Shown here piece by piece: positions 11,435 to 31,572 of a stretch of DNA of 64,000 bases. The stretch comes from Blastobasis lacticolella (lineage: Eukaryota; Arthropoda; Insecta; Lepidoptera; Blastobasidae). Made by a program: the position numbers and the translations under genes. Positions within the stretch are counted from its first letter, which is position 1, and each line of letters starts with the position of its first letter. Below the pieces are notes generated by a model. It made no database searches. It had not been told where the DNA came from and worked only from the letters and a program-made list of their open reading frames with translations. The DNA is taken from the NCBI GenBank assembly GCA_905147135.1, contig LR990053.1, forward strand, positions 5,654,501 to 5,718,500, read 5' to 3'.

Positions 11435-11638
11435 TGAAGAACGAACAAGAAATCAAAAACAAAATTAAATATTTATTAGTTATCACAAATTCAAACTAGT
11501 ATAAAAAACTTAATTATAACTTCATCTAGAATTAACAGTTTATTTTTCTTTTATGCGCATCAATAAAAATCAAGTAAATAATACTGTTAATTCTATAGTA
11601 TGACTACAATTAAACACAACACTTAAAAATCACTTTTC
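11435..11638. other. Intron or spacer between the two minus-strand genes
   Basis: Starts with the polypyrimidine tract of the zinc-finger acceptor. It also contains a minus-strand AATAAA near 11470-11476 that could serve the small gene on the right. Confidence 0.35.
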
Positions 11639-11896
11639 TCAATAAAAACATTCGATATAAAGAAAAGTATACTGATCGTCAGGCACAAAATTAGTATCTT
11701 CAATTTTACGCAGCCACAAAAACGGGTTAAAAGCTTTGGGAGTCGCTGTAACATCTCCTATTGTAATTACAGCTTTATCAAGTCTCTGGTATTTTCTCCA
11801 CTCCTGGCAGAGCTCGTCGTATAATATAATCTCCAGCGCAGAGTAAGAGTACACTTCCCAGCTCCGCGGCACAATACATCCGTATTTCAAACCCAT
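11639..11896 (-). CDS. Small protein of unknown family (85 aa)
   Basis: An 85-residue frame reads on the minus strand from ATG at 11896. It is rich in aromatic residues, with no signal peptide, membrane segment or low complexity. The pattern, with YDELCQEW near residues 27-34 and VITIGDVTA near 43-51, could suit a small beta-rich fold, but I do not recognise the family. A minus-strand AATAAA lies about 160 bases past the stop. It sits beside the left edge of the bracovirus-like block, so host or viral origin is undecided. It could be chance, though its composition is protein-like. Confidence 0.4.
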   Translation of the reverse strand: MGLKYGCIVPRSWEVYSYSALEIILYDELCQEWRKYQRLDKAVITIGDVTATPKAFNPFLWLRKIEDTNFVPDDQYTFLYIECFY

Positions 11897-13134
11897 TTGA
11901 ATAAAAATTAATGGTGCTTGGACGCGACTGTTCCGTACAATGCGTTTTACTTCAATGTTTACGTTACGAGACGCATGCGCTTCTTTTATTGAAGAAGGCT
12001 AATAACCTGGTGCGCAGTAGTTTTTTTTAGGAATCTCTAATCTTGGAGTAACCCAACATTGACATTGTCCACACCTCGTCTTGTGTATCTTAAGCTTCAT
12101 CTAGAACTGTATTGAATTTAAATCTTGTACAAACACGGATCAATCAGTCATCAAAAGATGATTTGTTGCTGCGTTGGTGATGTAATCTACTAGCTTTCAA
12201 AATATTGAATAAAAATACTGATCAAATAAGTTTAAATTACTAATTGTCGTTAACATATCCCTTACTACAATAAAAAAAAACAAGTCAACGTCCTTAAATT
12301 CCTAGACACTAAATATAGACTTGATGCAACTGCGTACAATTTATGAGCTCATGAGTCAAATCATTCCTGGAAAATAGTAACTTGCTAATTTAATTATCAT
12401 ACTGTCAACACCACAATAATGTTTTTGTTGCATCAAGACTATAGCTTAGGTGTTTAGTGATCTGCTGAGGAAAATATTGTTATAATGTAAAAAACATCCT
12501 TAGTAAGACCATATGTTATACCACAAATTGCGCCATTAGATTTTCATTGAGCCATTAAATTAAAGTTCAAAAGAAACTGTTTATTTTAACAAATTAGTTT
12601 CTAGTATTAAATCTGGATTACTTTTGTGACTACGCCAAGAAAACATCTGCAGTTTGAATAAAAATCTTTTATTTGAGTGTCAATAGATCTATACACTTTA
12701 CGAGTCCCCAATGGTTTAGCGACAGTTTATATAAACATGTTTCACGAATACCTGAATTCTTTCCAAATAGTTGATCAGCTATTTTGGGACCAGATTGGAC
12801 TCAATTACAAGTCGCATTAACTGCAAATGTTGCTTATATCTATTAATGCAGTTTAATGGTAACCTAAAAATTAGTTCGTCAGACAAAAAATTGACAGTTT
12901 TATTAATTTGTATAAATACATCAGTAGATCGACGTCAGTCTTTTGCAGAGTTGCGGTAGGTTAGTGATACATTCAATATTGTAAACGATCGACTTTATTA
13001 AGCGAAAAATGATTCTATATAAAACAAGTAATTCAAATTTAAATATTTTTACATAATAAATTCAATCATTGACCTTAGATATGTTTATAAATAAAATACG
13101 ACTTGAGTAGTGAGTATCAAAAATAATCGTCGAA
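11897..13134. other. AT-rich stretch likely to contain the left junction
   Basis: No convincing gene. An imperfect inverted repeat of about 24 bases lies at 12307-12330 and 12427-12457 (sharing 'gacttgatgcaac'). Somewhere between about 11.9 and 13.4 kb, moth-type DNA should give way to bracovirus-type DNA, but no sharp change can be seen by eye. Confidence 0.4.
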
Positions 13135-13260
13135 ATGGGACCGGATGCATTTAAAGATGTTCTCAGAAACATGGATACTGCCCATCAACGACGTCATAAG
13201 CTTACATTACTATCAATTTGTCAAATCCTACTAAATTACCACAGTATTAATACAACTTGA
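13135..13260 (+). CDS. Small open frame of 41 codons, uncertain
   Basis: ATG at 13135 begins 41 codons ending TGA. A TATAAATA-like box lies about 50 bases upstream (about 13085-13092), a spacing that suits a short-leader transcript. The product is basic and unrecognised. It could be a truncated first exon of a segment gene or a chance frame. Confidence 0.2.
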   Translation: MGPDAFKDVLRNMDTAHQRRHKLTLLSICQILLNYHSINTT

Positions 13261-13437
13261 ACACACATTACAGGAAATTATCCAACTGGATACCCACAAT
13301 GTTTCCAATCTATTAACGCTCGACGGGTTGTCACTTATTGTACATCCATTAAGTGAAGACGCTTCGTGTTTTTAAGGCGATTAATTGAAGGTCGGTTGAT
13401 GATATATGAGGCGAAATCAAAGAATGTTTTCAGTCTC

Positions 13438-13935
13438 TTAGAAATCAACAGAAGAGTCACTATCGATTGGGTCATCACAAACGGCTCCGTTGGTCCTAAA
13501 AATGTCCATCATTCTTTGATCACGAGAAAGGTAGGCCAGGTGGTATGGCGTCAGATGTGCGAAGTTGATAGCATCCTTATTGGCTCTGGTCTCTCGGCAC
13601 AGCCACTCGGCGAGCTGGTAGTTTTTCTTGATCGCAGCGATATGGAGCAGTGTGTTGCCGGTATCAGCTTCTCTAGCATTGAGGTCTGTGCCCAAATTGA
13701 AAAGGATCTCAATTTTCATAAGTGCGTTTTTTTGGTCATACCTCGCCACGATGTGGGTGCACATTCTTCCTCGATGGTCGTACTCGCGTAGCAGGTTTCC
13801 ATCACTGCCAATGAAAGGCGCGAACTCCATCAGTTCAAACACATTCCCAGAGCGGCAAATAGAGAAAAAATATTTTTTATTATCTTCATAAGTCCTTTCT
13901 GGCACATCACTTGTAGAGTCGTAATTTCGCGCCAT
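13438..13935 (-). CDS. ank: Viral ankyrin (bracovirus IkB-like) protein
   Basis: An intact intronless 165-residue frame. Residues 1-50 form a leader with FFSICRSGNVFELMEF; residues about 54-152 hold three ankyrin repeats, recognisable by DHRGRMCTHIVA, DTGNTLLHIAAIKKN and NFAHLTPYHLAYLS. The length and the absence of both an N-terminal phosphorylation region and a C-terminal PEST tail match the viral-ankyrin family of braconid-wasp polydnaviruses. By family knowledge these proteins bind NF-kB factors in parasitised caterpillars and cannot be degraded by host signalling, so immune gene induction is blocked; that is family knowledge and is not shown here. A minus-strand TATAAAAA box at 14071-14078 fits a leader of about 100 bases. 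The frame has no stop or frameshift, which suggests recent arrival or selection. Confidence 0.85.
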   Translation of the reverse strand: MARNYDSTSDVPERTYEDNKKYFFSICRSGNVFELMEFAPFIGSDGNLLREYDHRGRMCTHIVARYDQKNALMKIEILFNLGTDLNAREADTGNTLLHIAAIKKNYQLAEWLCRETRANKDAINFAHLTPYHLAYLSRDQRMMDIFRTNGAVCDDPIDSDSSVDF

Positions 13936-14070
13936 TATGAGCTCGTAATACTCGAGACGTCCTTGCTTCGATAAAAGCGCACAGTAACTGACTAACCGAC
14001 AGCTCCGCTATCAAGGTATGAAATTGATTCAAAAAATCTACTGTCCGATTCAAAAATAGCAGGCACTCAA

Positions 14071-14078
14071 TTTTTATA
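14071..14078 (-). promoter_or_regulatory. TATA box candidate for ank gene
   Basis: On the minus strand the sequence reads TATAAAAA about 140 bases before the ank ATG. Bracovirus ank genes are transcribed by host RNA polymerase II. The assignment rests on position and motif only. Confidence 0.35.
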
Positions 14079-14099
14079 AATATTTATTGTAAATAAACA

Positions 14100-15170
14100 T
14101 ACATTAATCATGCAGTTGGTGTGTAGATACACTTGAGGTTAAAAATACGAATGCCGGACATTCTGTAAATAGCTTTGGCTCATCTATCATCACATAACGC
14201 TAATTGGCAGGCTATTCAAAACGAACATTAAGATATGAATTTCGCTGATAACGATTGAGTCACTGTTGTTATTTTAATTGAATAGAATTGCAACGCGGTA
14301 GACTATATCTTCATTTTTACGATATACCATAGGAAATTTTATTAAGTTAATTTAACAATTTTACAATAGTTAATCATTTAATTTCTTTTGCAAACAGTAA
14401 ACTTTCGTCAAAAATAGCAAACACGAGGCTGAAGTACGATAATTCAGGGCAAGACCTCCATGGTCAGGAACAAATTCAGTCGACATTTAAGCACCATAAT
14501 ACGCATAGCAATTACGTCATAAGGTCGCAACCAAAATAGCATAGAAAAAAGGTCATCGTCTTCTTTGATAAAACAGTTAACTTTTCTTAATAGTTTTGTT
14601 TGCGGGAAGAAACATAAACTATTGAGCTAGGCAATGTCTGCTTTCGATCGCATTGAACCATGCAATCATTAGTATAAAAATAGAGAACAACGCAGATCAG
14701 AGTTAATAAAAACCTGGTAATTGCCTTATAATTCAAGCTTATTTATCTGAGCATCTGTAAGATGCATTTGCATTCAATCCGCTGCCAAAACACATTATTG
14801 GCAACATAATGTTGAGCTGTTCGGTCATTACACTTCTCAACACAGTTCAATGTCAAGTTCACTTGGCATCGTTAGTACGCGTGATCGGGTATCGTAAGAA
14901 TTCCATTTGATTTGTTGTTTAATTACATTAGAATAATACCAATTTGAACCTAGACGTGATGAGTGTTTTTATTCGTAGTATCAAAATCACATAAGATCAT
15001 GCGAAAGTGGTCAATTGGTTCAATCCCACACAACTTTACATCGTAAATAGTTTGCTAATGCCTTGTTGAAGCCAAGAAATCAGTAAATGACCCAAAGTAC
15101 TTTGTTTTTATTTCTTCGCTTCAGTAAATTGAATCTATAAATATCGGTATAGATTTGTCACAGTCCTTTG
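14100..15170. other. Non-coding AT-rich spacer of the segment
   Basis: About 1 kb between the ank gene and the next segment gene, read on opposite strands (divergent promoters). No frame, repeat or RNA gene recognised. Large non-coding spacers are usual in bracovirus circles. Confidence 0.4.
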
Positions 15171-15176
15171 AGGCCA

Positions 15177-15183
15177 TATAAAA
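15177..15183 (+). promoter_or_regulatory. TATA box of the four-exon gene
   Basis: TATAAAA about 61 bases before the ATG at 15244. A start site near 15205-15210 would leave a leader of about 35-40 bases. The pairing with a clean open frame makes this a convincing core promoter. Confidence 0.55.
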
Positions 15184-15243
15184 GCAGACACCTGTCAGAT
15201 AGAACACACTTTTTTCAACCGCGGTCGAGGACGTATCATTAAA

Positions 15244-15963
15244 ATGGACGTTGATTACCTTGCCATTCAACTTCGAACCGTAGAAACCTACATATTGGTT
15301 CCAAAAGAGTGGCCCGCGCGTGCTCATAGCCTTCTCTTGACACTAGCAGAGCAAACAGTTACTCAATTTAATTATGTTAGTCCAGTTGTACAAATATATA
15401 ATATACCAACTAGGTTAATTTGTCACGTTAATGATTGTGGATTTTACTACGTTTTCAACAAAGTGTCTAAAGAGTGAGTATTAAAACCGGATCTTGTAAG
15501 GCCGTTGATTTCAGGAATTGATATTATTTGTTTTCTATTTCAGAGAAATGATTGGCGCTTTTGTATATAACATATTAGTTCCCAACAACAATGGACCCAT
15601 TCAAGTTGAAATTATTAGCGGAAATCATCTCAACCATCGTCCGTTGTTACATGAAGCTACGAGTGTCATACCTTATTTTCAACGGTAGTAAGCATCATGG
15701 CCTGTTGAATAAGTGCTTTGCTTAAATGATCCTTCAGTAAATCTCCTGATTTCAGTGGAAGAGTATTACCTGATTTTATTGGCGCTAAATTCATGTATCG
15801 TCGATTCATCTGGCGGAAGCGGTAATGAAACACGAAATACTGCATGACAAAAATTATAAAAAGAGAAAGTTGTCTTTAAATGATTGTGTTAATTTGCAGG
15901 TCACAGCGAAAAAACATATGCAAAGTTTGCGGTAGAGTTGTGGATAAAACCACGAATCAGTAG
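15244..15963 (+). CDS. Four-exon gene of unknown family in the bracovirus block (166 aa)
   Basis: Exons are 15244-15473, 15544-15684, 15756-15821 and 15900-15963. Every junction has GT-AG ends (donors GTGAGT, GTAGTA and GTAATG; acceptors tttcag, tttcag and ttgcag) and all phases agree, giving 501 coding bases ending in TAG. Introns are very short (70-78 bases). The product begins MDVDYLAIQLRTVETYILV and ends with a basic region containing a CKVCG pair of cysteines; there is no signal peptide or membrane segment, so it is probably intracellular. I do not recognise the family. A TATA box lies at 15177-15183 and AATAAA at 16383-16388. Small spliced genes with short introns are common on bracovirus circles. 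It looks fully functional. Confidence 0.7.
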
Positions 15964-16382
15964 CCTCTTGGAATAGGTGAGTCATCAACGAATTAGTGGT
16001 CTATGACTGTAGAATGTATAGTCTAAGATTTGACAGAGTTAAAAATGAGATTCTAGTCTTTATATGCGTATTTCAACTAATGTCTTGTTTGTTGTAGGTA
16101 CAATCCAAAATTGTGATAATTGGTGCCATTTTTGTGATGCAACATATGATGCAACGTTGACTACGATTCATTTTGAGTGGACTATTGACAAAATTTTTGT
16201 GTTCCTGCAATATGAGTGATATTTTGTTTAAAATTTTCTGATGTTAATGTTATCGTGCTTGTTCTACGCAACACTTTGAGACAGTGAGTAAACATACGTA
16301 TATTAGATTGCTCGTAATTTGTTTATTTTGCAATCAGTAATAATTGTAAATCACTGTTTTAAATGCAAGATAATAATCTGTA

Positions 16383-16388
16383 AATAAA
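16383..16388 (+). terminator. Poly(A) signal candidate
   Basis: AATAAA about 420 bases after the stop of the four-exon gene, in AT-rich sequence. Confidence 0.3.
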
Positions 16389-17638
16389 ATACTGTAAACA
16401 ATAGAGCTTGTTTACTTCTTACCTGAATGAACATAATTTATACAAGTATTATAAACGTCTAGTCCATTCCAACAATAGCAGAGTAATGAACTTTTGTCAT
16501 AGAAAATCGATGGTTATCGTACTCATAAAATTAGTTTTGCTCATAAAAATAAACGATTGACCATCCAAATATTCTTCTAAGGATATCAATATATTGATAT
16601 GAACATTACTATTCAATTTTTACGATATTGCTCATAAACTATGATGTTTATGACTCCACCGTGTAATGAATTCCATCCTAATACAAAATTTATGATAAGA
16701 CGTGAGATTGAAGAAAAACAGGTCTTCTGTTTACAATGCATTTTTCGTCAAAAGTAGTTATGATAACGATTATGGCTGTTACATCATCCGGAATTACAAT
16801 ATGATTCGATTCCTCACTTTAGAATGCGAATCATATTTATTTCAAGACGACATTCGTTGAATGAAGTAATAAAAAAATCATAAAACGTCAAGTGCCCGCT
16901 TCGTTAATAATCAGCCAATTCCAAGAATTATGACAAGTGAAGTTTATGATGAGAAATGAGAGAATGAGTCCATCATAAAAAATTGAGTGTAGAAATAGAC
17001 TCTAAGGCGTTTGTGCTACACCGGGTTCAATAAATTTCTTGCAGCGTCACAATTTTCCTGTTTTTTTATGAATAATAAGAGAATAATAAGAGAATGGACT
17101 TTATCAAACCTGCCTTATCGACAGATACCAAGTAAACAACGCTGCTGTACAAGTGACGCCACCTTCGTTATCTCAAACAGCCATTTCCTCGAGAATTTGA
17201 CCAATCACTAGTCATTTATATGACAGCAAGTTTTTTATAGTTAATTATAGCCTATAGCGAATCTCATATAGTTCATAAAGGCACGTAACGTTTTTTGAAA
17301 TTTACACTGTGAAATGCTGCAAATATTTTGATGCGCGGGTTTGAATCCCGAGCCAGGTTTTCTTTAAATAATAATAGTTTTGAATACAATTATAGTTCAG
17401 ACTTATTTAGAGTTAGAACACTCATAAAAATTTTTTGTTGTCGCAACTAATTTTTTGGATAAACAAAACTAGAGATATGTCGTCGAAATGGAAGGACAAC
17501 GATTCATCTTCAATAATCATTATAATATAAGACACATAGCATTAATATGAAAAATAATTTTACTTTTGATAGTTTTATATGTTAGTACTTAACAGGAGGA
17601 GTTTATATTTATATATGTATATAATAAAGAAGTGATAC
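16389..17638. other. Non-coding segment DNA with one tRNA-like scrap
   Basis: No gene recognised. 'gggtttgaatcccgagcc' near 17338-17356 resembles a tRNA T-arm or B box, but no acceptor or anticodon arms can be built around it. The stretch ends at the left LTR of the BEL/Pao element. Confidence 0.4.
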
Positions 17639-18114
17639 TGTTCAAATCTCCCTCGCCTTCAACCCTCTGCTACATTATCGACCGCCAGGGCTAGCTCATC
17701 GATCTAGGTGGCAGGTCAGCTGCTGAGAAAAAAATCCTCATGCTCGCTCTCACTCCACGATCTCCCTCTTACGCTCTACACACGCTAACCTACACAGTGC
17801 TACGCTTTCTGCTAATTACTACATCTGATTAATGCTAATTAATCACGCTTAATTCAAACGCTATTTTAGTACTATTTAATTCAGTGAATTTTTTAATACA
17901 TCTTTTTTGTTCACAGAGTTAAAATCAGTGCTTGCTTTATTTATTTTCAAGGCTTCGAAACCATGTGCATTCTGACCGCATGGCATACGCATGTTTAACC
18001 TGCATCTACCACATCTCTGCTTGCTATTAATTCAACAACTCACAAATTAACGCAAATTTAAGCCTGACTGTGATTTAATTTAATATTGTTATAATTGAAA
18101 TAGTGCTTTGTTCA
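17639..18114 (+). repeat. 5' LTR of BEL/Pao element (39-base deletion)
   Basis: Begins TGTTCAAATC and ends TTCA. By eye it matches the 3' LTR throughout, except that 39 bases present at about 24145-24183 are missing here. The gap is bounded by the direct repeat GTT, which suggests slippage or recombination after or during the last replication cycle. Confidence 0.88.
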
Positions 18115-18283
18115 CCGCCACTGTCATCTTACATCACTTCCTGCACATACATCACTTCCAGCGACTGCTACGCCTAAAAGGATCCACAAATTGTCAGTTT
18201 GTTCCTTTCAAATCACCATCTTACTGCTAATTACCGTCATTTTCTCGCATTGATTCTGTTTCAATATATTTCAGATACTTTAC

Positions 18284-19683
18284 GATGTCTGCCAAGTACT
18301 TGCTACAGTTCGAGTCTCACAACGCTGCACTGGTCAACATGTCCATTGAACTAGCTGACGGTCTGTACGACCAAATTCACCTGACGGATTGCGAGGTCAA
18401 CCTCCAGGTCCACGTGGAATAAGCTTGCTGATGCGCATGACAAGCTGACTGGCTGCAAGGACATCGACTTCTCCCACGACTATTTCAAAAACGGCCAATA
18501 CGCCAAGGCGCTAGGTCGCTACGCCTCTGTTAAAGCTGCGCTGAAGCGTCGTCAAGTTGAGCTCGAACCTCGTGTAGCGCCTCTATCGCCTCACAACGCT
18601 ACCTTACACGCTGCACAACAGCTAGCTCGTCCGCAACTGCCTATGATCCAGCCTCCAACCTTCAGCGGAGATCTACTTGAATGGCAATCATTCAAGAATA
18701 AGTTTTTATCTGTCGTGAACAAGGAAGGTGTAAGTCAGGTCGACAAAATGCACTATCTGATCCAGAGTCTACAAGGCAGCGCTTACTCTCTCATTGCTAA
18801 TGTGGAAATTTCTGAGGAGGCATTCGCTACCGCCTGGCAAGCTTTAACCACTAGATATGAGAATAAACGCGTGCAGATTACTGCGCAGCTGAACAAGCTA
18901 TTCAGTCTTCCTAAGATGACGTCGCGAGCAGCTAAGGAAGTCAACAACGTGATCAACACAGTGAGAGAGGTTTTGAACGCTCTTACTACCCTCGGATCGC
19001 CAGTTGCTGATTGGGATCACCTCATAGTACATTTCATCACTCATAAGCTTGATCCTATGACACGAGAAGACTGGGAAGTTACTCTCGGTGCTGCAACCGA
19101 ATACCCAACATACGACCGCATCAAGACCTTCCTTCTCTCACGCGCACGAGCCTTGGAAGCTCTGGAAGGTCGTCTCCCAGGCAAGCAACGTGATCCAAAG
19201 GCTAGCAAAAGGACCTTCAGCAGTAACAAACCTACGCATGCGCCTAAATCTCCTTCTGCACACGTCCACGTAGCCAATTCATCATCTCAAAACGCTACTA
19301 CGCCGATTACACCACCTGCTACAGTGCACTCACCTCCTGGAAACGGTCCTGGAGCTTCAACGAGACATCATAACCCGTGTTCATGTTGCGGTGAAGCGCA
19401 TTTCATCGTCACTTGCCCATCATTTCGCAATCTCACAGCAAACGAGCGTCATCTTCAAGCTATCTCCAAGTCACTGTGCCTCAACTGCCTTGGAACTCAT
19501 GCTATTTCGAACTGCCGTAGCAGGAATAGATGCCGTCACTGCAACGCCGCGCATCACACGATGCTGCACGATTCTACGCAGCTCAACGCTTCACCTGCTA
19601 GATCTAACCCAACCACGCTAGCAAGCTTGTTCCAAGGACCTAAAGCTTCTACATCACCGGAAAACAAGAGTTCGTCATCATGA
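18284..19683 (+). pseudogene. gag: BEL/Pao gag, one frameshift
   Basis: The frame starts at ATG 18284 (MSAKYLLQFESHNAALVNM). After about 43 codons it meets TAA near 18419, while the adjacent frame continues from about 18412 with WNKLADAHDKL, so a single-base indel separates two parts. The main part (from 18415; first Met 18643) contains the Pao gag core (PPTFSGDLLEWQSFKNKFLS near 18653) and a C-terminal Cys/His zinc-knuckle zone at 19378-19570 (CSCCGEAHFIVTC, CLNCLGTHAISNC, CRHCNAAHHTMLH). The protein packages element RNA. It ends in TGA, in the same frame as pol. Confidence 0.82.
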
Positions 19684-19806
19684 CTATTCAGCAACGCATC
19701 TACACGCTATCAACCTACGCTATCAACAACGCATATCGCCGCATCACTACTCTCTACGCAACAATCACGCTCATCTTATCACGCAGCCTCATCACCTAGA
19801 CCTCTA

Positions 19807-22800
19807 GTGTTGCTGGCTACTGCTCAAGCTCTCATCATCACGCCTACGCAACGCACGCACGCAGTACGCCTTCTGATTGATCCAGGATCAGAACTATCAC
19901 TAATTTCTCAGCAGCTTGCTCGTCTGCTGAAATTATCAGCCTCTGATTCCCGGATTCCAATAATGGGAGTCGGAAGCGTACCTTCAGGATCTACAAAGGG
20001 TGCCGTTGACCTACTACTACGCTCAACGCACTCCAACGATCAAATTCAACTACGCACGCACATACTACCATCACTTACTGTTGAATTACCTCCAGCTGAC
20101 ATATCACATCAATCATGGCCTCACATCACTGATTTGGAACTAGCAGATCCAAACTACTTGTCACCTGGTCGAATTGATGTCCTCGTCGGAGCTGATTCAT
20201 ACGGCTTAATCATAAAGCCAGGAATCAGAGCTGGAAAACCCGGTCAGCCGATTGCTATCCAGACAATCTTTGGATGGGCTGTTCTGGGACCGGTCAATTC
20301 ATCAACGCTCAACGCACCTGCTCATCAAGGTCTTCTAGTCACCAACTCTCAACTTTACGACCTCATCTCGAGATTTTGGGAACTGGAAGAAGTACCAACT
20401 ACAGTTAATGAAGCTCTTAGTGCTGAAGAAGCAGAGTGTGAAGCTCACTACGTGGCTACTCACTCTCGAGACAGCTCTGGTCGCTACATTGTGCGTTTGC
20501 CGTTCAAATCCAACGCTCCACAACTTGGACACTCGAAAGGCATCGCACAACGCTCACTCTCACGCTTACTCAAACGCATCTCTCAGCAACCTGAACTCCA
20601 GCATCTCTACAAGGAGTTTCTCTCGGAGTACGAGTCCCTGGGTCACATGCAGAAAAGCCAATCATCAAACACGTCATCTGTTGAATACTATTTACCACAT
20701 CACGGTGTCATGCGCAATAACAAGATCCGAGTAGTATTCAATGGTTCCTACAAAACGACTTCAGGCAACTCCCTCAATGATCTGCTTCATGTTGGTCCAA
20801 AGACTCAAAACGACATCTTCGACGTGCTCTTATACGTTCGGCGCTACGAGTTCATCTTTACGACTGATGTGGAGAAGATGTTTCGCCAGATTCTGGTTCA
20901 CCCAGATGACCGCAAATTCCAACTCATCTTGTGGATCGACGAGGACAATCAAATTCAAGAGTACGATCTCTGCACGGTCACTTACGGCACCACTTCAGCT
21001 CCTTACTTGTCAGGCCGCACTCTACAACAGCTACTGCTCGACGAAGAGCACGACTTTCCCCTAGCTGCGGAGCCTTTTCAAAAGGGTAGTTATGTCGATG
21101 ATATAACAGGCGGTGCTGACAATATTGATACGCTCAACGCTATTGCCACACAAGTTGAACAAATGTGCCTACGCGGATGCTTCCCGTTGGCCAAATGGAA
21201 AAGCAACCACCCAGCTTTCTGCAAGCTTCACTCATCTCAACCAGCAAGTTCTCAGACACATGAATTCGGCGAGTCCTCGTCCAAAATTTTGGGTCTTGCT
21301 TGGCAGTGCGCTCCAGATCTGCTGATGTTCACTGGTCAACCAATACAACGCGCAGCTATCACCAAACGCACCATACTCTCCGAAACTGCTCAACTCTTCG
21401 ACCCACTGGGTTTAATTTCACCAGTCATCGTCCGTGCCAAAATCTTGATGCAAGACTTGTGGCAGGAAAAGATTGGATGGGATGACACGCTTACGCCGCA
21501 GATCATACATCGCTGGATGACATTCCGCGATGAACTAGCACAACTCTCACAACTTACAATACCTCGCTGGCTTCATCTACGCTCTGACAACGCACAGGTT
21601 GAGATACACGGCTTCTCGGACGCATCTCTAGCTGCAATGGCTGCTGCAGTCTACCTGCGAGTATCCACACCAACAGAATCATCAACAGTAACTCTCGTCT
21701 GCTCCAAGACAAGAGTCGCTCCACTCAATCGCCTCACAATACCACGCCTAGAACTATCAGCTGCACTATTACTCGCCAAACTTGTCACTCGAGTTCAATC
21801 AACGCTCCAACTTCAACACGCTCCTGTTACCTTGTGGACAGACTCTTCAGTATCTCTCGCTTGGATTAACAGTGATGCGATGCGTTGGAAGGAGTTCGTG
21901 AAGAACCGAGTGCAACAAATCCAACAGACTGCGCCGGATGCGACCTGGAAATTTGTCTCTGGCAAACACAATCCTGCAGATTGTGCTTCTCGAGGTCTGA
22001 CTCCAGCTCAACTCATCAATCACACGATCTGGTGGTCTGGACCAGACTGGTTAGCTGAACCAACGCATCTCTGGCCTTCATTTACTGCACCTGATGATCA
22101 GCCAGATGACATTGAGATTCGCCCTAGCTCTGTGCACATTTCTTCAAGCCAGCAGTTGCCATTCAGCACGCTTTTTTATCAAGACACTACGCTTACCAAA
22201 CTGCTGCGCGTAACAGCTACCATTCAGCGAGTAGCAGCGTGCTTTAAAGGAGTTCCTGATTCAAGTCTCAGCGCATCACCACTCAATCCTGCTGATTTTC
22301 AATTTGCTTTGACCTTCTGGATCAAGTCCACACTCGCCAAGTCACATCCTGTTACTCGCTTGACTGCTTGGATTGATCAGACCGGATTACTTCGAGTTGG
22401 CGGTCGCTTACAAAACGCTCAGCTTGATGAAGATGCTAAGCATCCTCCAATTCTGCCCAAGGACACCATCATCTCCAATCTCATCATCTCCAACGCTCAC
22501 ACTCGCACTCTGCATGGAGGTACTCAACTGACGCTGAACTACATACGCAAATATTGCTGGATTCTTGGTGGTCGCGCTCCTGTCAAGTCTCACATTCACA
22601 GATGCGTCACTTGCACAAGAATACGCGGCGCTAGAGCTCAACAACGCATGGGACAACTTCCAGTCTCACGCGTTACTCCATCTTTAGTATTTGAGCACTC
22701 TGGAGTCGACTACGCTGGTCCTGTGTCTCTCAAATTCTTCAATGGACGTGGTTCGCGCTCTTACAAGGCGTGGATTGCGGTATTTGTGTGCTTTTCAACA

Positions 22801-23739
22801 TCTGCTATTCATCTCGAGTTAGTGACTGACTACAGTACTGGAGGATTTCTCAAGGCCTTCAGACGCTTCACGGCTCGGCGCGGAATCTGCAAAACACTCT
22901 CAAGTGACTGCGGAACCAACTTCCAAGGCGCTCAAAGCGCACTGAAACGCCTCATGCACGGATTCACCAAGGAGTCTCATCACCTGCAGCAACTGATAGC
23001 TAATGATGGTACGCGCTGGAAATTCAATCCTCCTGGAGCTCCTCACATGGGCGGCAAATGGGAAGCTGCTGTTAAATCAGTAAAACAACATCTCGCTAAG
23101 GTCAACTCGGACAAATTACTGACCTACGAAGATTACTCCACGCTGCTGATCCAGATTGAAGCTGTGCTGAATTCTCGTCCACTCTGCGCTCTCTCTGAAG
23201 ACCCTGACGACCTCATAGCACTCACTCCAGGTCACTTTATTAGAGGAGCCCCTCTCACTACAATACCTGAACCATCTCTACTACATCTACCAATCAATCG
23301 TCTCTCTTTACTCCAGTACATCCAGCAACGCCTCCAGCTGTTCTGGGCTCATTGGTCTGAATCCTGCCTCAAGACGCATCAAACCATCTCCAAGTGGAAC
23401 ACATCATTCCATGACATTGGAGTTGGTTCAATGGTGCTGCTGACTGACGAACAATTGCCACCATCAAAATGGCCGCTGGGTCGCGTCACGCATATCCATC
23501 CAGGCCAAGATGAACTCACACGCGTCGTCACCATCGAGACCACCTCAACATATCTCAGACCAATCCACAAGCTGATACTACTGCCAATTCCACGTCACGA
23601 GGAAGATTCTCAAGATGCCGCTCCAGCTGCATCTCAAATACTTCTCCACCGAGCGGAGAAGGGGGGAGAATGTTCAAATCTCCCTCGCCTTCAACCCTCT
23701 GCTACATTATCGACCGCCAGGGCTAGCTCATCGATCTAG
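19807..23739 (+). CDS. pol: BEL/Pao pol polyprotein (protease, RT, RNase H, integrase)
   Basis: A 1310-codon frame. Aspartic protease: LLIDPGSELSLI, active site near residue 25. Reverse transcriptase: RVVFNGSYKT, TTDVEKMFRQILVHPDDR and YVDD at about 429-432. RNase H: GFSDAS near 602 and WTDSSVSLAWI. Integrase: H2C2 zinc module from about 903 (HGGTQLTLNYIRKYCW..CVTC), then the DDE core with VDYAGP near 967, SDCGTNF near 1033 and the glutamate in GGKWEAAVK near 1084. A Pao-type C-terminal domain follows. No internal stop. From the gag TGA at 19681 the frame is open and in phase to pol, so only one stop codon separates them: either read-through or a recent nonsense change. The last 69 bases of the frame lie in the 3' LTR. 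Confidence 0.93.
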   Translation: MLLATAQALIITPTQRTHAVRLLIDPGSELSLISQQLARLLKLSASDSRIPIMGVGSVPSGSTKGAVDLLLRSTHSNDQIQLRTHILPSLTVELPPADISHQSWPHITDLELADPNYLSPGRIDVLVGADSYGLIIKPGIRAGKPGQPIAIQTIFGWAVLGPVNSSTLNAPAHQGLLVTNSQLYDLISRFWELEEVPTTVNEALSAEEAECEAHYVATHSRDSSGRYIVRLPFKSNAPQLGHSKGIAQRSLSRLLKRISQQPELQHLYKEFLSEYESLGHMQKSQSSNTSSVEYYLPHHGVMRNNKIRVVFNGSYKTTSGNSLNDLLHVGPKTQNDIFDVLLYVRRYEFIFTTDVEKMFRQILVHPDDRKFQLILWIDEDNQIQEYDLCTVTYGTTSAPYLSGRTLQQLLLDEEHDFPLAAEPFQKGSYVDDITGGADNIDTLNAIATQVEQMCLRGCFPLAKWKSNHPAFCKLHSSQPASSQTHEFGESSSKILGLAWQCAPDLLMFTGQPIQRAAITKRTILSETAQLFDPLGLISPVIVRAKILMQDLWQEKIGWDDTLTPQIIHRWMTFRDELAQLSQLTIPRWLHLRSDNAQVEIHGFSDASLAAMAAAVYLRVSTPTESSTVTLVCSKTRVAPLNRLTIPRLELSAALLLAKLVTRVQSTLQLQHAPVTLWTDSSVSLAWINSDAMRWKEFVKNRVQQIQQTAPDATWKFVSGKHNPADCASRGLTPAQLINHTIWWSGPDWLAEPTHLWPSFTAPDDQPDDIEIRPSSVHISSSQQLPFSTLFYQDTTLTKLLRVTATIQRVAACFKGVPDSSLSASPLNPADFQFALTFWIKSTLAKSHPVTRLTAWIDQTGLLRVGGRLQNAQLDEDAKHPPILPKDTIISNLIISNAHTRTLHGGTQLTLNYIRKYCWILGGRAPVKSHIHRCVTCTRIRGARAQQRMGQLPVSRVTPSLVFEHSGVDYAGPVSLKFFNGRGSRSYKAWIAVFVCFSTSAIHLELVTDYSTGGFLKAFRRFTARRGICKTLSSDCGTNFQGAQSALKRLMHGFTKESHHLQQLIANDGTRWKFNPPGAPHMGGKWEAAVKSVKQHLAKVNSDKLLTYEDYSTLLIQIEAVLNSRPLCALSEDPDDLIALTPGHFIRGAPLTTIPEPSLLHLPINRLSLLQYIQQRLQLFWAHWSESCLKTHQTISKWNTSFHDIGVGSMVLLTDEQLPPSKWPLGRVTHIHPGQDELTRVVTIETTSTYLRPIHKLILLPIPRHEEDSQDAAPAASQILLHRAEKGGECSNLPRLQPSATLSTARASSSI

Positions 23740-24185
23740 GTGGCAGGTCAGCTGCTGAGAAAAAAATCCTCATGCTCGCTCTCACTCCACGATCTCCCTC
23801 TTACGCTCTACACACGCTAACCTACACAGTGCTACGCTTTCTGCTAATTACTACATCTGATTAATGCTAATTAATCACGCTTAATTCAAACGCTATTTTA
23901 GTACTATTTAATTCAGTGAATTTTTTAATACATCTTTTTTGTTCACAGAGTTAAAATCAGTGCTTGCTTTATTTATTTTCAAGGCTTCGAAACCATGTGC
24001 ATTCTGACCGCATGGCATACGCATGTTTAACCTGCATCTACCACATCTCTGCTTGCTATTAATTCAACAACTCACAAATTAACGCAAATTTAAGCCTGAC
24101 TGTGATTTAATTTAATATTGTTATAATTGAAATAGTGCTTTGTTATTGTTTAATAAATTTTCGCATTATAAAACGAAAGAGTTCA
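23671..24185 (+). repeat. 3' LTR of BEL/Pao element
   Basis: Starts TGTTCAAATC after the purine tract and ends at TTCA before GTGAT. It is 515 bases, the full-length form that retains the 39 bases missing from the left LTR, including an AATAAA at about 24151. Confidence 0.88.
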
Positions 24186-24190
24186 GTGAT

Positions 24191-25640
24191 CAATAAATTA
24201 AACCTTATAAGCTATCCAAGTCCCAGTATTTACTTCTACTTTACTTGTACTTTTTACAGATACAATTTCGCAAGATAAACAATGACTGAAAATATAGACT
24301 GTGACTCATTTTTTGCGATAGTTTACATGACACTAATTAAAGTAGATGAGCTTTAAAAAATTTTGAAGTCAATCCTCGACGAATCCGCTGCAATAAAACT
24401 CACAAATATTTTTATAAATTGTAATGTTTCTACTTGTTGGATTTGAAAACTGCAATTAAAAGTTTGAAGTCGAACAATTATACTATAAAAATAAATTTAA
24501 GAGTCTGATTCACTTGACCAGTCCTATACTAATATACGGGATCAGTAGTCAGTGATCCTTTATCGAGAAGAAATGATTATACAGATATGCAAAAATGCCT
24601 TTGAAAAAAATTCATTACCATTAGCTGTAGAAAAACATGTAGTTCTCGATTAGAAAAAATATTTTTTAAAAATATTTTTATTCATTAGTTAACAAAGGGG
24701 GAGTTAATATATATATATAATATATAATAATATTCTGATTCTCACAGGAACTATACTTCCATACTGATAAAACTATACAGTTTTATTTTCATTTTCTTCC
24801 CATGCGTCATCCACGCATTCGTAGTTAGTGACGCTACTGTCTAGGTGGCGCTTCTCTAGATGCATTTCAAACGAAATGTTGGCAGTAATTTGTACTATTA
24901 TAATTTATTTAATGCCGTAAGATGGACGGCGGAGAATGAGGTTCATCTAATAAGATTGCAAGTTCAATGATTTTCATGCTTGCAATCTTTGATTACTTGG
25001 TTTGGAGCCTAGGCAACTGCGGGAGTAAGCGGGAAGGACTTATTAAGCCTTCTCGGCCTCATGGCTAAGATCAAAGTGTATATAGACTTTGATCTTACAA
25101 ACTTCAATCAATTAATTAAATTTCGTAAATAATTAAATATAATTTTTTTTGGGCCTAGTTGGGCTAAGAGACAAATTTATTTGTTCAGTTATAAACGATA
25201 AATTTCTAAAAACTCTGATAGTATGACCGCATGTTATGCTTATATGGGGAAACATATTAATTACCAATAGCTTAGTCATTAGTTTTTCCGTTCGTTTACA
25301 GAGTAATTTAATAAATTCCAGTTGAATAAACTTATTTATTTCAGTGTGTAATTGATCGCTGGTCATTACGGGAGTCTCCTGTTCTGTGAATAATTAATTT
25401 TTAAGTGCGAACATAGTTTTTGGAAAAGTTGTTTCTTCTCGATATTTAACTGCAAATCGGTGAGGCTTGTTCTAAATTTTCTAAATTTTAGTTTTTCTAT
25501 ACAATAAGTTTTGCTGCAAGTATCTTTTTGGAACTCTTTATTGGTTTTGATTACTCTTCATACCCATTTTGAGTTTCAAGAAGAAATTTGGAAGTTTATC
25601 ATCAAGCTTATAGATAACATGTTTTGAGGTCCTAGGAAGC
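24191..25640. other. AT-rich segment DNA; possible site of missing BEN 5' exons
   Basis: No defended gene. Dinucleotide AT runs lie near 24707-24730. A short U2-snRNA-like block at 25049-25095 is listed separately. Any upstream exons of the BEN gene should be here or were lost. Confidence 0.4.
25049..25095 (+). ncRNA. U2 snRNA 5'-end-like fragment with hairpin
   Basis: Bases 25049-25080 (cttctcggcct.atggctaag, then atcaaagtgta) match the 5' region of insect U2 snRNA as I remember it, with about one difference, but the following branch-point-pairing and Sm regions are absent. Instead, 'aagatcaaagt' is followed after 8 bases by its inverse 'actttgatctt', forming an 11-base-pair hairpin. It is a retro-copied U2 fragment or a U2-headed small repeat and not a functional U2 gene. 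Confidence 0.55.
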
Positions 25641-25675
25641 TATTCTGATGGTTCCCGCGAGGGTGTCACCCTGTC

Positions 25676-25710
<35 letters not shown>

Positions 25711-26330
25711 GTATGTGACCCGCTTATAACTTTTGAACGGCTCAACCGATTGAATCCTACTAAACGGCATTCCAAAGAGTTTCACTGAACTTAAATTTTC
25801 TGAAAATTTGGACCGATTCGGACCGGTAGATTCTGAGAAATCTCAAAAAAACTAGGAAAAAATTTTTTTTCAAAAGTGGTTTTTTTGAAATAACTTTTAA
25901 ACGGCTTTACCGATCAATTCCAAAAACTAATCAGCTCTTAACATCAAAAAACGACGTCGATTGCCGCAAACCGGGTCAAAATCGTTCGATTTGTTCGTGA
26001 GATATCGTGAACGAAAAAAACTAAAAAATTGATTTTTTTTTAAACACTTCAAAATTTTTTATCCGTCAATTTCTATCAATTTTTTATCTCAAATTCTTTA
26101 TAGTGCTCGAAAAACTGCATCGATTGCTCATAACCGCATGAAAATCGGTTGAGTCATTCAAAAGTTATGGCAGATTGAAAATTAAAAAAATACTCTTTTA
26201 TCAAACTTTTGAGCTCGCAGAGCTCAAAAACATCGCAACCAGCGGCTATATTACAAACGCTCAATGACTGTAATGAGCGGGAAGTTGTAGGGATGGCCTT
26301 GGGGTCAACCGTTTTCCAAATTTTTTTTAC
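25641..26330 (+). repeat. Wasp-type interspersed repeat with GT microsatellite
   Basis: Begins 'ggttcccgcgagggtgtcac', has a (TG)n run at about 25680-25708, then 'cttttgaacggctcaaccga' and repeated weak versions of 'taacttttaaacggctttac'. This sentence-like pattern is familiar to me from braconid and other hymenopteran genomes and not from moths, which supports a wasp origin of the block. It lies just upstream of the BEN exons, perhaps in an intron. Confidence 0.5.
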
Positions 26331-26406
26331 TCACTTTGTTTGACATAATTTTCGTCTTACTTCAAAATATTTCTGGTTTTCATTAATATTTTCTTCATGA
26401 TTCAAG

Positions 26407-26502
26407 TACACACAGAAAGAAAAAAAATTCGATAGGAAAAAAGTTTTTATTTCGCTCCAAAATAATTTTATCGGTTAGAGTGAATTTTTTTTCTGTGTGT
26501 AT
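26407..26502. mobile_element. Tiny MITE with ACACACAG ends
   Basis: About 96 bases with inverted ends 'tacacacagaaagaaaaaaa' and 'ttttttttctgtgtgta', flanked by TA. No coding capacity. Similar short ACACACAG-ended repeats occur in parasitoid wasps, from memory. Confidence 0.6.
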
Positions 26503-26575
26503 ATTTTATGCATGTCTAAATATCTGCTTACATAAAAGTATCAAATTATTCATTAAATTCATAAATTATTTTCAG

Positions 26576-27240
26576 ATGATCGATCATTTAAGGAGATATT
26601 GCTGAACTTATCCGAAGACATAAAATTTGTTAAAAGAGTCCAACTTAACATGATGAGAGCTCAAGAAGCCAATCCAGCTAGGCAACCCAATGGACAAGTA
26701 TGAACAATATCTGCTCCAATTATCACAATAAGAAATGAAATTATTAATTTCTATAAAATTTGACGTTTTTAAAAATTTTGAATACTTTTGTTTTTTGATA
26801 TTAATTACTTTTTCTTTTTGAAGGTTGAAATTGGTCACAGAGGCTCAAACGTGTTTGTCACCCAGGAGCAATGGAATACAGCAAATTCTAGGGATACTTA
26901 CTGGTCGATGGGTGTTTCACTAGTTAATGCACTATTTGATACAGAAGTTTTGCTGGAAAGTAACCTGAGAGGTGGTCTTAGTAGAATAAAAAAAGACGCT
27001 CCTAAAAGACCTGCACTGAATCCCTATATAGTAGCGACTATTACTGGTAAATTGTGATTGAGTTTGAGCTCAAAAAGCTCAAAATTTCTCGAATGGGTTT
27101 ATTTTTTACGACGAAAAGCTCCAAAATTCAATAGGCAGTCCAATTTGTGTATTTAATATTTAATTGCAGAAGCTGTCCGAGCAAAATTTCCTGATTTTAG
27201 AAAATCTCAGTTTGGATCAGCAATTAACAACTTCTTGTAG
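26576..27240 (+). CDS. BEN-domain protein, 3' exons (5' end not found)
   Basis: Three exons with GT-AG ends and matching phases: 26576-26697, 26824-27046 and 27170-27240 (TAG). The middle exon carries the BEN signature SLVNALFDTEVLLESNLRGG, followed in the last exon by KFPDFRKSQFGSAINNFL, the usual BEN C-terminal helix pattern. BEN domains bind DNA or chromatin proteins, and BEN genes are a known family of bracovirus circles whose role in the caterpillar is unclear. The first exon shown begins in mid-codon, so at least one 5' exon is missing. None was found upstream, where wasp repeats and the BEL/Pao element lie. It is either intact with a distant first exon or a 5'-broken copy. Confidence 0.75.
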
Positions 27241-30200
27241 GGTCTTCGGAGAAAAAATAAAGCTCCTGCTCGGAAATGGTTTATATTATTATTATTATTA
27301 TCATTTCGATTTCTATTTTTCTTTGTATTTTTATGTAGCTAAAATAAAACAATATAGGTTAATTATGATTATTAATTTTACAGGATCCAGCTGAAGATGA
27401 GTGAACGAAGAACCGTACAAATGTTGCTCTGCTGTCAGAAAATTTTGATTTAATTTGCATATTGTTTAATGATCACATCTATTTTTCGATTTGTGCAAGT
27501 GATGTTTACTTGTGATGTTAATTTATGATATTTACTTTCAATAAAGATAAAGAATTTCGTTCTAATTACTATATATTTTCATCATTCCTTTAGCAAATAT
27601 GAATCTACTATGGAAGCGTTGAATAAACTCGTAATGAGCTCAGTGTTCGTACAAACTTGGGTAAGGCTTTAGAGATATTTTGAAAAACTGATTTCCTTAA
27701 TTGAAAAAAATATTTTGAAATAAAAGTTACTTTGAATGCCCCAAGAAAAGTTTTTCTTTCTCAGAGATAACTCAAATCTTCCTAAAAATGTTTTACGGTT
27801 CCCTTGACCTTTTTTTAATTGAAAAAAATTTTAGTAACTAGTTTCTGGAAATTTTCAGTAAACTTAAAATAAGATTGCAGGTGATTTTGAATTAATTCCA
27901 TAAAACATGCCCTCTAATGTAAATTATTTATATTGTGCCGTATAATTTGTAATATATATGTTACCATATATTTAATTGAATATAATATTGATATATTTTG
28001 TGAAATATATTGTAACTATATATTATAAATTATGTAATAAAAATATAATTTATCTATAAAGAATCAATATATTTCTATCAATTATATAATTTTATAAAAA
28101 AACGTCCAAAATCACTATATGGTATCATATATCATAAATATATTTTTTTTTATATTTTTATCTTGCAAAACTATAAGGAATAATATATTTTTGACTTATA
28201 TTTTATTTTCATACGGGCAATGTAATTTTCATTTGATAACTTTGTTATTTATCTAAAAACAATATATCTCTGGATTGAAGAAATGGTATTTTGAGGCTCT
28301 GATTCTGAAGCACTTGATATGTAATGCGTTTCTGTAAGCATACATAACTTGAGCCTTAGAATGAGATTGACTCAAGCCTTGGAACTAAGCAAGAGTCCTT
28401 CAAAATCAAGACAGAAGACAAAAGTCTAATTTACCGCATAGAAGAAATAGAAAATCTCAAGCTGTACTAACTAGCTTATGGTCTTATGGTTTTATATTCA
28501 TGAGATCATTTGGAAAGTTGGTATAGACTAAGTTTATCAACGACCCTATTGCAAGACTTCTATCATTCATCGCATGAAGGACATCCTCATTTTCATGATC
28601 TATTTTAGCTGGCTTCATTAATCAGTGAGTTTCTTTGCTTCACTGGTATTGGAGACTGCTAAGATTGATCGAAATACACACATTTCACTTCATTGAAGAA
28701 ACTGCAGAAGTATGATAATTACTTCCATTGCATCTGCACAAGATTTTCATTGATATTTTGCATGATAATCATTTTTCATGAAAACAGGAAGACTTGTAAT
28801 TAAAAACACGTTTATGAGCTTAGTCATTGACTATATCATTATTCCACAAAAATATTTTGTTGTGCTTATAGAAAATATGCGATAACGATGTATGAATTTG
28901 AACGGATGGACTGTGAACTTTGCTACCAGATGAATAGGTTTGGGTTTGAACATTCTTAATAGCAAGTCCATTTCTATACTGTATTGCAATTTAGAATATT
29001 TCATTCTAGCCAATATTCTTCATATCGATGCTTCAAGATAAAGTTTGTAGCATGATCTAGGTCTCAACAAAGCTGGACCAAGTTTGAATTTATGGTACTA
29101 TTATGACATTTACTATGACAAGTACGTTCTAGTTCCATTCAGTCATGTTATGGGTTAAAATAGTCCAGGATTTACGTCATCTCATACTATATTGTTTTAA
29201 TTTTGCAGGAAAACCAAAAATAAATTCCGGATTTATAATTATAACTTCATTTTAAATTATTTTTTCCAGCTTGGAAGCTTTTGGACAAAACAAATGGACT
29301 TTTCAGGAATAATTTCAACACAAATGATTCAAGATAAGGGAAAAATCATAAGATCTTGTTTAGTCTTCTTGAGGAACCTTATCCTGTCCATATGTTCCTT
29401 ATATTATGGACGGAGAACGTACCTGAGAAAGATTAGATGACTTTCATCGTTAGATTCTGGACAAAACTGAAAAAGCATAATGTTTCTGTTTAAAGGACTA
29501 TCCCACCCTCAGAGGCCTCTGTCCTTGATCTCATTTAACAAGAAAATAATACATACAACTGTAGTTTTGTGCTCATATAAGCTGAATACTGCCTTCCCTG
29601 AATTTTGCACTAATTAAAATGCTTATTAATCGATGTTTTTTTCATAAGCTTCAAGATTTGCAAGTGATCGAAGACCGTTCATCTTCAAGATTAACTTCGA
29701 AAGCAGTCTTGGACCGAAAAATAAATAATCTAGTCTCTGTTAAGTAGCTCAGGATGCCTATGTATTTCTTCATTCCATAGCACCTTCAGATACTTAAGAG
29801 AGCTTAGACGAATCTCCATTACATTCTTACGAAAATTTATATAATTTTAGGCTGCTCGTGAGTATTTATAGATCAATGAGATCCTTCAACTTTCTAAGTA
29901 GATTTGAGCTTTCTGTGACACTAGATTCCAGATTCCGGATCATTCACAACTTCAGCAGTAATTTGTGATCTGTTTGAGCTTATTTTAATCAGCCGTGTAT
30001 TTATAACCTCATGGCTCGTTAAATTAGCTTTACTAGATCAAAATTATCTTCATCAGCAAAGAAGAAACAACACTTATGGTCTTTTTCGGTTGATTCACTT
30101 TGCGCATGTGTTGCCTTCATGGCAGTGTGACCCGACTGAATTAGTTTAGAGGCAGACATCTTATTCCAGAAGAAATCTGACCATTAGGGAAATCTTTGAT

Positions 30201-31375
30201 CTTTCGAGGTCATGCAAATTTTATATTTTCTATCATTTATGACTTGCATTACTCAGACAGTTCGATATAACTTCAAGGAAGAAATGGTTCTTAGTGCTGT
30301 CAGCTAACTCTAATAGACTTTTGCGTTTCTTCTAACAAATACTTTCAGAGTCAGTATAGATTGCATTAAGAAACGACTACAGGGTTTGAAGTTTGGTGAT
30401 CAAGACCCGAAGAAATGTCTTGGGTTCCGTATCTTTGTATCTTTTTAATTAATCATTAATCACAAACACTAGATACCAAAGTATAGCGAAGACTCATCAC
30501 AAGAAGAGATTGAATCTTGACTGTTTTAGCTTCTTTTGTAATTGCTTACGTTTTCTATTCGTAATCAGTTCAGAAGAAGTTAAAATAGAGCAAGGTATTC
30601 TGCCAGCGAACGAGAATGATTTACATAAGGAGCCGATGTCAACGTTCTATGTCTTCATTGTTTGATTGACGTCAAACGAACCCAAACAAATAATAGAACT
30701 AGGCAAAATTACAGGAAAACTATAAATATTTATCAGTGTGGTCTTGTTACTTATTAAACGTTTGTTTCTGTTCCAATTATTAAATACAAATAAGGAAAAT
30801 TATTTGCATATTTTAATCTTTTTGTAGGCTTTTTCGATGTCCTATAACTGTTACTCTAAAACTTTTAATAAACGACTGCTGGAAAAAATGAGTTTTTTAT
30901 TTGAAAATTAATTTTAAATTTCGACTACGAAATTTTTCCTGTGCATTCAATCCTTGATTTCGTTTGGTTCTTCATACAATTGCTCATAAACCGTAAGATT
31001 TATGGCCAATGAAACATTCTGTTTCGGTGATGCGACGCACGTTTGTATGATATCCGAATCAAATTTAGCTAATACACGCATTTATATTGAATAAAAATGA
31101 CGTCATTTCGAAGATTCAAGTGGATATCAGTCGCGGTTGGAGGTTATGTCAATATACGCTATGGAACATTAAAAGGCTGTTAATTAGCTCTTATCAAATG
31201 CTTTCCACGCTGACGTCAATGTTTAGATACCAACACATGTTGCGTGGTCAAAACAATATTTTTAGGCTTCAACATTGAGATAATTGCTCGCTAAATGTCG
31301 TCACGAACTTTGAGGGCTAGCCTAACTCCTTTCAGACTTTGCTAATTTTTTTTGCGAAATTTAGAGAGTAAAAAT
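27241..31375. other. Long non-coding AT-rich DNA reaching the right junction
   Basis: About 4 kb with no open frame above 65 codons that I trust. 27595-27665 has a short exon-like patch (MEALNKLVMSSVFVQT before a GTAAGG) without partners. 27930-28230 is extremely AT-rich. The right edge of the foreign block must lie before 31376, where zinc-finger-like moth sequence begins. Extended non-coding DNA is normal for bracovirus segments. Confidence 0.45.
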
Positions 31376-31572
31376 TTAAATTTTGACATGGGAAGGAGTC
31401 CTAGTCAATATCGGTTTGGTCCGAGTGGTCATTATTGCCGCCACTCGTGTTTTCTTGGCCTTTCCTCGTAAAGTAACTATATATGCAAGGAGAACGCAAT
31501 CCGACGATCTCGAAGTCTTCGCGGTGCAACCCCATGCGGTCGTGGTGAACCTGTTTATGCTTGGCCTTACCT
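31376..31572 (-). pseudogene. Decayed C2H2 zinc-finger module, same family as 8948-11434 gene
   Basis: On the minus strand, KHKQVHHDRMGLHREDFEIV then GL matches the finger-end-plus-spacer module of the zinc-finger gene at 8.9-11.4 kb (HMEIHHHSLGLRRENFEIV). The spacer continues with similarity (HSDQTDID against DSSQIDLENV) but contains a TAG, and upstream the frame is closed. It is either a relic exon of the same gene or of a tandem paralogue. The RTE element cuts it at about 31580. Confidence 0.6.

Follow-up and report, generated by a model that had tools for sequence, protein, structure and literature searches.

The 64,000-nucleotide window analyzed here (C14:5,654,501-5,718,500 of a 577-Mb, 45-contig lepidopteran assembly) contains a viral block at 11,399-31,405 that is nested: one bracovirus circle, circle B, lies within another, circle A, and a BEL/Pao long terminal repeat (LTR) retrotransposon lies within B. 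That a lepidopteran chromosome carries integrated bracovirus DNA is strongly supported, because the block has ends of the host integration motif (HIM) type, a recombined circle junction (direct-repeat junction, DRJ) and a bracovirus ankyrin gene, and copies with the same ends occur elsewhere in the genome. As a whole, we consider it highly probable that circles of a microgastrine-type bracovirus entered the moth germ line by the HIM route, with B in A and with BEL/Pao delivered together with B. The genome is lepidopteran, since all 51 chorion matches fell inside C28:3.44-3.94 Mb in a single cluster, which rules out a wasp genome. A previous, sequence-only reading had described one bracovirus segment at 11,900-31,375. 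Bracovirus DNA at this location was borne out by the HIM ends, the DRJ, the viral ankyrin (vankyrin) and the other copies, but the exact edges had to be corrected to 11,399 and 31,405, where they match other copies within a few bases, and the single segment was rejected in favor of two nested circles, because copies of A elsewhere lack the insert and copies of B elsewhere have the same right end.

Circle A, split by B into a left and a right part (Table 1), measures ~6.5 kb and carries the ankyrin gene and a four-exon gene. Copies of A on contigs C1, C3, C7, C26, C17, C22 and C8 aligned from ~11,399 and had unrelated DNA outside, and the right end lay at 31,404-31,405 in the six copies that were read there (C1, C3, C7, C26, C17 and C22). 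Genome matches to a 902-base left-end probe started within 3 bases of the end in 16 of 25 cases, and 12 of 17 matches to a 464-base right-end probe reached the end (window and two intact HIMs on C8 counted in both). The ends of A agree with the 8+5 HIM published for Cotesia vestalis bracovirus, TAAATTTC..CTGGT / ACCAG..GAAATTTA (PMC8460044; this and the other papers are cited from the portions of their text available), and HIM ends (J1/J2), suggested before as features to look for at the block edges, were found for A on both sides. Both the J1 and the J2 end were present and the spacer was lost. In the two intact HIMs on C8, the same ends of A are joined by a spacer of 49 bp, which HIM-cut copies do not have and which is within the range of 41 to 73 bp reported to be lost on HIM integration (PMC8549517). 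None of the eight A copies that were read at both ends (window, C1, C3, C7, two on C26, C17 and C22) had a target duplication of at least 2 bp at the fixed ends. Right flanks of A copies often started with TA(C/T)G, and one base matched across the insert in each of the eight copies, which makes a target or repair preference possible.

Within A, the left half of the recombined DRJ corresponds to the 3' DRJ on C8 and the right half to the 5' DRJ, with an AGCTTT core, the excision motif of bracovirus segments (PMC1919376), between them. Besides the window, 6 of 8 HIM-form copies showed a readable recombined DRJ, and it was not recovered in the C17 and C22 copies. HIM sequence on both sides and one internal recombined junction indicate that A came in as a circle that had been opened at its HIM. 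Over the pieces compared, A in the window differed from the C1 copy at 35 of 6,099 sites (0.57%) and from the C3 copy at 70 of 5,569 sites (1.26%). Two kinds of A, ~15% apart, were distinguished, and copies of the second kind were 0.4 to 4.2% apart (leaving out C8_4731, in which an insertion inflates the values). At a mutation rate of 2.9e-9 per site and generation, the divergence from the C1 copy would correspond to about one million generations, if the two were identical on arrival.

Circle B forms a 13.9-kb insert between 17,047 and 30,943, where the C1 and C3 copies of A have ~330 bp, which B replaces. Genome matches to a B right-end probe stopped at the same base (30,942) in 14 of 17 cases, window included, and the left end at 17,047/17,048 was set by several copies. 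On C8, a copy of B (3,511,212-3,519,077) runs from HIM-type end to HIM-type end, and both of these ends fit the published HIM as inverted repeats; in the window, only the right end of B is at a HIM, the left end being a break ~457 bp inside. The junction of B in A has ~1 bp of microhomology. B differed from the C8 copy at 78 of 6,632 sites in the pieces compared (1.18%), and other B copies, on C23, C14, C5, C3 and C24, were shorter, as judged by the coordinates of two probes. Two B copies (C14:12,192,331 and C24:11,035,749; L055 and L056) had the same right flank, which suggests that some copies spread by duplication including flanking DNA. A second right-end stretch, ~126 bp beyond the first end, was seen in three B copies (C23:14,314,541, C14:3,042,815 and C5:232,416; L051 to L053) and suggests a circle variant with an internal duplication.

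The BEL/Pao element, named before from the sequence, was confirmed by a BEL-type gag and pol (DUF1759 and the domains of homologues), LTRs and a short target-site duplication, GATAC. The C8 copy of B is without BEL/Pao, its site being uninterrupted with one GATAC. An in-frame TGA parts gag from pol, so that coding is interrupted, and the 5' LTR covers the first 474 of ~588 bases alone, so that two complete LTRs are not present; the LTRs were identical at 474 of 474 aligned bases. In a protein search with pol (7,958 candidates scored, best 120 of 2,539 matches listed), the closest among the matches listed were from Microplitis demolitor (84%), Cotesia glomerata (79%) and Neodiprion pinetum (76%), and the named matches in the best 120 were from Hymenoptera and one fly and none from Lepidoptera, many rows being nameless. 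A 1-kb DNA probe of BEL/Pao matched one place in the genome, namely the window. In view of this wasp affinity, the absence of a second moth copy among the probe matches and the identical LTR bases, BEL/Pao most likely came from the wasp inside B. A separate later transfer that brought BEL/Pao to B in the moth, outside a circle, is unlikely. The identical LTR bases, by which BEL/Pao may be younger than B, would suit such a transfer, as would the C8 copy of B with nothing at the site and the finding that the 1-kb probe detects BEL/Pao in no other B copy; against it, no second moth copy was found with that probe, the closest listed proteins are braconid, and an independent transfer would have to hit a rare viral target. 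By the 1-kb probe, BEL/Pao is no multicopy element of the moth, and a moth element that jumped in later is not supported, given the single match to this probe and the braconid relatives.

Table 1. Features of the viral block (window coordinates)
Feature	Position	Strand	Basis
Circle A, left part	11,399-17,047		Begins at HIM J2-type end ACAAGGAAAGATTTCG; other copies share this end but not the flanking DNA
AGCTTT core, recombined circle junction (DRJ)	12,192-12,197	+	Left half, C8 3' DRJ; right half, C8 5' DRJ
Viral ankyrin (vankyrin) gene, 165 aa, open	13,438-13,935	-	Pfam Ank_2, E 2.6e-11; homologues; start codon checked
TATA box and four-exon gene, family unassigned	15,177-15,963	+	TATA ~15,177; ATG 15,244; exons ~15,244-15,473, 15,544-15,687, 15,756-15,821, 15,900-15,963; canonical GT/AG splice borders
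Circle B inserted in A	17,048-30,942		Right end, HIM end (TAAATTTCGAC..TTTTTCCTGT); left end, break ~457 bp inward of the HIM-type end that the C8 copy has there
Target-site duplication GATAC, 5 bp	17,634-17,638 and 24,259-24,263	+	Single GATAC at uninterrupted C8 site
BEL/Pao LTR retrotransposon, wasp affinity	17,639-24,258	+	DUF1759, E 4.9e-33; LTRs; GATAC duplication
gag	18,385-19,680	+	Frame
pol	19,684-23,739	+	Frame
AT-rich repeat in B	25,640-26,320	+	Matches L030 and L031 alone (B on C8) among 22 pieces
BEN-like exons of B	26,576-27,240	+	~26,576-26,697; 26,824-27,046; 27,170-27,240
Circle A, right part	30,943-31,405		Ends at HIM J1-type end ..GACATGGGAAGGAGTCCTAGT

Ankyrin matches at many places in the genome identify the window as one of many sites. 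A genome search with the ankyrin (416 candidates, 150 scored, 150 matches listed) gave 128 loci (merged at 30 kb) on 28 contigs, and 115 of the 150 scored matches had no internal stop; these counts, like the kinase counts below, vary with the scoring of candidates. The HIM-end pattern TAAATTTCGAC-N13-CTNGT, counted by exact matches only, occurred 39 times in the genome, compared to 2 occurrences of the reversed pattern used as the control, and 15 of the 39 were within 20 kb of a scored ankyrin match (~0.4 expected). For 13 of the 39 occurrences, the downstream sequence was read and compared with J2-type sequences and with 200 shuffles each; the 13 stretches were mutually different, and in 11 of them the J2-like match was no better than in the shuffles. 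Three HIM-end occurrences on C21 (14.43, 14.50 and 14.59 Mb) were each ~10 kb from an ankyrin match and spaced by 76 to 90 kb, a trio that represents either a local duplication or clustered integration.

These numbers of copies bear on a different origin, in which A and B would be moth transposons with captured viral genes, spread by transposition, and bracoviruses would merely have the same genes. The many dispersed copies with fixed ends, several of them 98 to 99% alike, the imperfect inverted ends, the 1-bp match across A and the right flank common to two B copies are what one might expect of a transposon. We nevertheless hold this origin to be very improbable: the eight A copies show no target duplication of at least 2 bp and hence no constant one, the ends match a published viral integration motif, a recombined DRJ lies inside, and an intact HIM with its spacer exists. 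No transposase was noticed among the open reading frames listed, although no search aimed at transposases was made.

On C8, three stretches (4,722,929-4,732,895, 4,852,240-4,853,550 and 17,245,140-17,245,249; L047 to L050) showed the proviral configuration of wasp type, with separate 5' and 3' DRJs (two copies each) and the two HIMs intact with the 49-bp spacer. Outer flanks common to the DRJ copies were alike at 242 of 251 and 391 of 396 aligned bases. Wasp chromosomal DNA and integration through the DRJ are both candidates for these DRJ-bounded forms. It is conceivable, if doubtful, that wasp chromosomal bracovirus DNA also crossed into the moth lineage and is seen as the DRJ-bounded, HIM-intact segments on C8; if so, these proviral segments could have released further circles by direct-repeat recombination.

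C8 held 41 of the 150 scored ankyrin matches (5.7 expected), in clusters at ~3.5-5.1, 9.5-10.6, 16.4-17.4 and 19.7-20.1 Mb, and 1 of 137 kinase matches (5.2 expected; P = 0.03; 125 of 524 kinase candidates scored). By this kinase test C8 is gene-poor and perhaps a W or B chromosome; we infer that it is the W. The HIM-end pattern was not enriched on C8 (3 of 39 versus 1.5 expected). Sampled non-viral DNA of C8, all from pieces near viral copies, was covered to 0 to 6% by pieces of other contigs, compared to 4 to 26% elsewhere. Proteins of BEL/Pao-related retrotransposons, compared with the C8 pieces by tblastn, reached ~40% identity at best, which is uninformative for the origin of C8. Assembly chimerism or wasp contamination, to which the DRJ-bounded forms and the low coverage of non-viral DNA on C8 would lend themselves, is most improbable, as the same ends occur at many sites on other contigs, repeats of other contigs recur in the two flanks of the window block (11.5% and 18.7% covered), the chorion cluster is present and nudivirus p74 had no match in the genome (a weak test, since the control matched nowhere either).

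In the route that we propose for the nested bracovirus block, circles of a microgastrine-type braconid wasp would have entered germ cells of a moth ancestor, presumably through injection by the wasp. Each circle would have opened at the HIM with loss of ~50 bp between J1 and J2, and the linear form would then have joined host DNA without a target duplication of at least 2 bp. Circle A landed beside a zinc-finger reading frame, and circle B went into A by a HIM end on one side and a break elsewhere on the other, with ~1 bp of microhomology; this second step may have taken place in the moth or earlier, in the wasp. BEL/Pao would most likely have jumped into the B segment while this was still in the wasp, to be delivered along with B, and integration of this kind took place many times over in the moth lineage.

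Several points weigh against this route. The 1-bp match in each of the eight A copies read at both ends could reflect coincidence, viral bases left in place or a very small duplication. Among the sampled HIM-end occurrences, the one on C2 (L071) was borderline, with 3 of 200 shuffles as good, and the one on C25 (L078) had a partial J2-like match that none of 200 shuffles equaled (score 22 versus 42 for the intact C8 HIM); the C25 occurrence may be an uncut or degraded HIM by its sequence, and both may be something other than cut HIMs. The DRJ-bounded copies on C8 do not suit an account with circles only, and among the near-identical copies some may have arisen by duplication within the moth. 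For the BEN-like exons, Pfam BEN matched the one exon tested at E 0.043, under the curated cut-off. BEL/Pao could also have come to the moth on its own and entered B only then. The donor wasp, as well as BEL/Pao in its B segment, is something that we infer, and viral contigs, scanned twice with 3 and 97 pattern matches, gave no relative.

The short viral-ankyrin gene that had been predicted in A is present. Its search gave nine hits, of which the closest (80% and 84%) were without names; named relatives were from Euphydryas editha (62% identity), Cotesia glomerata (64%) and Microplitis mediator (58%), and identity was 60% to ANK3 of Cotesia sesamiae Kitale bracovirus and 57% to ankyrin 5 of Microplitis similis bracovirus. 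The 62% relative in Euphydryas editha is on a contig of 12.7 Mb and may reflect a comparable germline transfer in this butterfly. Between the window and the C1 copy, the ankyrin had three amino acid changes and no silent change, too few for judging selection. The compact four-exon gene with a TATA box was likewise found as predicted; two of its exons gave no match in Pfam, and exon 1 had 56 genome matches, the C1 copy being identical. Judging from their reading frames, both genes of A look open, and the moth could express them. Of the BEN-domain gene claimed for the block, the spliced exons stand, and the name BEN is weakly supported because of the E value below the curated cut-off; no BEN match was obtained at E 0.01 in a Pfam scan of the window. 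BEN-like sequence was present at four genome places, the other three being on C8. Of the bracovirus gene families, the block therefore has vankyrin, and BEN weakly.

The flanks carry a zinc-finger open reading frame and a long interspersed nuclear element with endonuclease and reverse transcriptase. The zinc-finger frame (window 8,951-11,398, minus strand) stays open as far as the junction with A, whose insertion may thus have disrupted a moth gene; a protein search with it (4,065 candidates) gave no significant match. Tandem repeats with units of 86 to 104 bp were present at window 4,135-4,783, outside the viral block. A search of NCBIfam gave weak matches alone, far under the cut-offs, and a search of Rfam gave none. 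The repeat in B (25,640-26,320), which had been called hymenopteran-type before, matched L030 and L031 alone, both carrying B on C8, among 22 pieces; a hymenopteran origin would be putative.

Bracovirus DNA in lepidopteran germlines is already known, and Heisserer et al. are said to have reported germline polydnavirus integrations in many Lepidoptera in Mol Biol Evol in 2023. In caterpillars parasitized by Cotesia typhae (PMC8549517) or C. vestalis (PMC8460044), as here, J1/J2 is cut, a spacer of ~39 to 73 bp is lost and the DRJ is internal; unlike those integrations, the copies described here are in an assembled genome, presumably inherited, nested and numerous. Bracovirus inserts with genes including Ben are also described for the genomes of monarch, silkworm and Spodoptera (PMC4574769, PMC5704228). 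They resemble the present block in having bracovirus genes and one recombined DRJ, but they are partial, the largest being 6.5 kb, whereas here copies extend from HIM end to HIM end, and there is nesting and a retrotransposon inside. Large numbers have a precedent, as 105 regions in two lepidopteran genomes were attributed to wasp DNA (PMC4190172). HIM-mediated duplications in Cotesia (PMC8549517) also have circles re-entering a germline via the HIM, although there the recipient is the wasp itself. The Helitron Hel_c35 linked to C. vestalis (PMC5714489, PMC9389653) is likewise a wasp-associated transposon proposed to pass to Lepidoptera, but the later of the two papers took back its assignment as a viral segment, whereas the element here sits inside an integrated circle.

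For the retrotransposon passenger, the nesting and the proviral forms, we found no report in the open-licence literature searched, and their newness is provisional. A review of 2017 treated circles that carry transposons from wasp to moth as a hypothesis for which, in the part of its text available, convincing evidence was lacking (PMC5704228). A braconid-like retrotransposon in an integrated circle, with a GATAC duplication and with no second copy found, comes close to the evidence that this review found lacking, and the passenger route is directly testable in the donor wasp. With its many integrations and with proviral forms on C8, this genome is suited to measuring the rate at which wasp DNA enters and the fate of the genes delivered, and so bears on the crossing of genes and transposons between insects.

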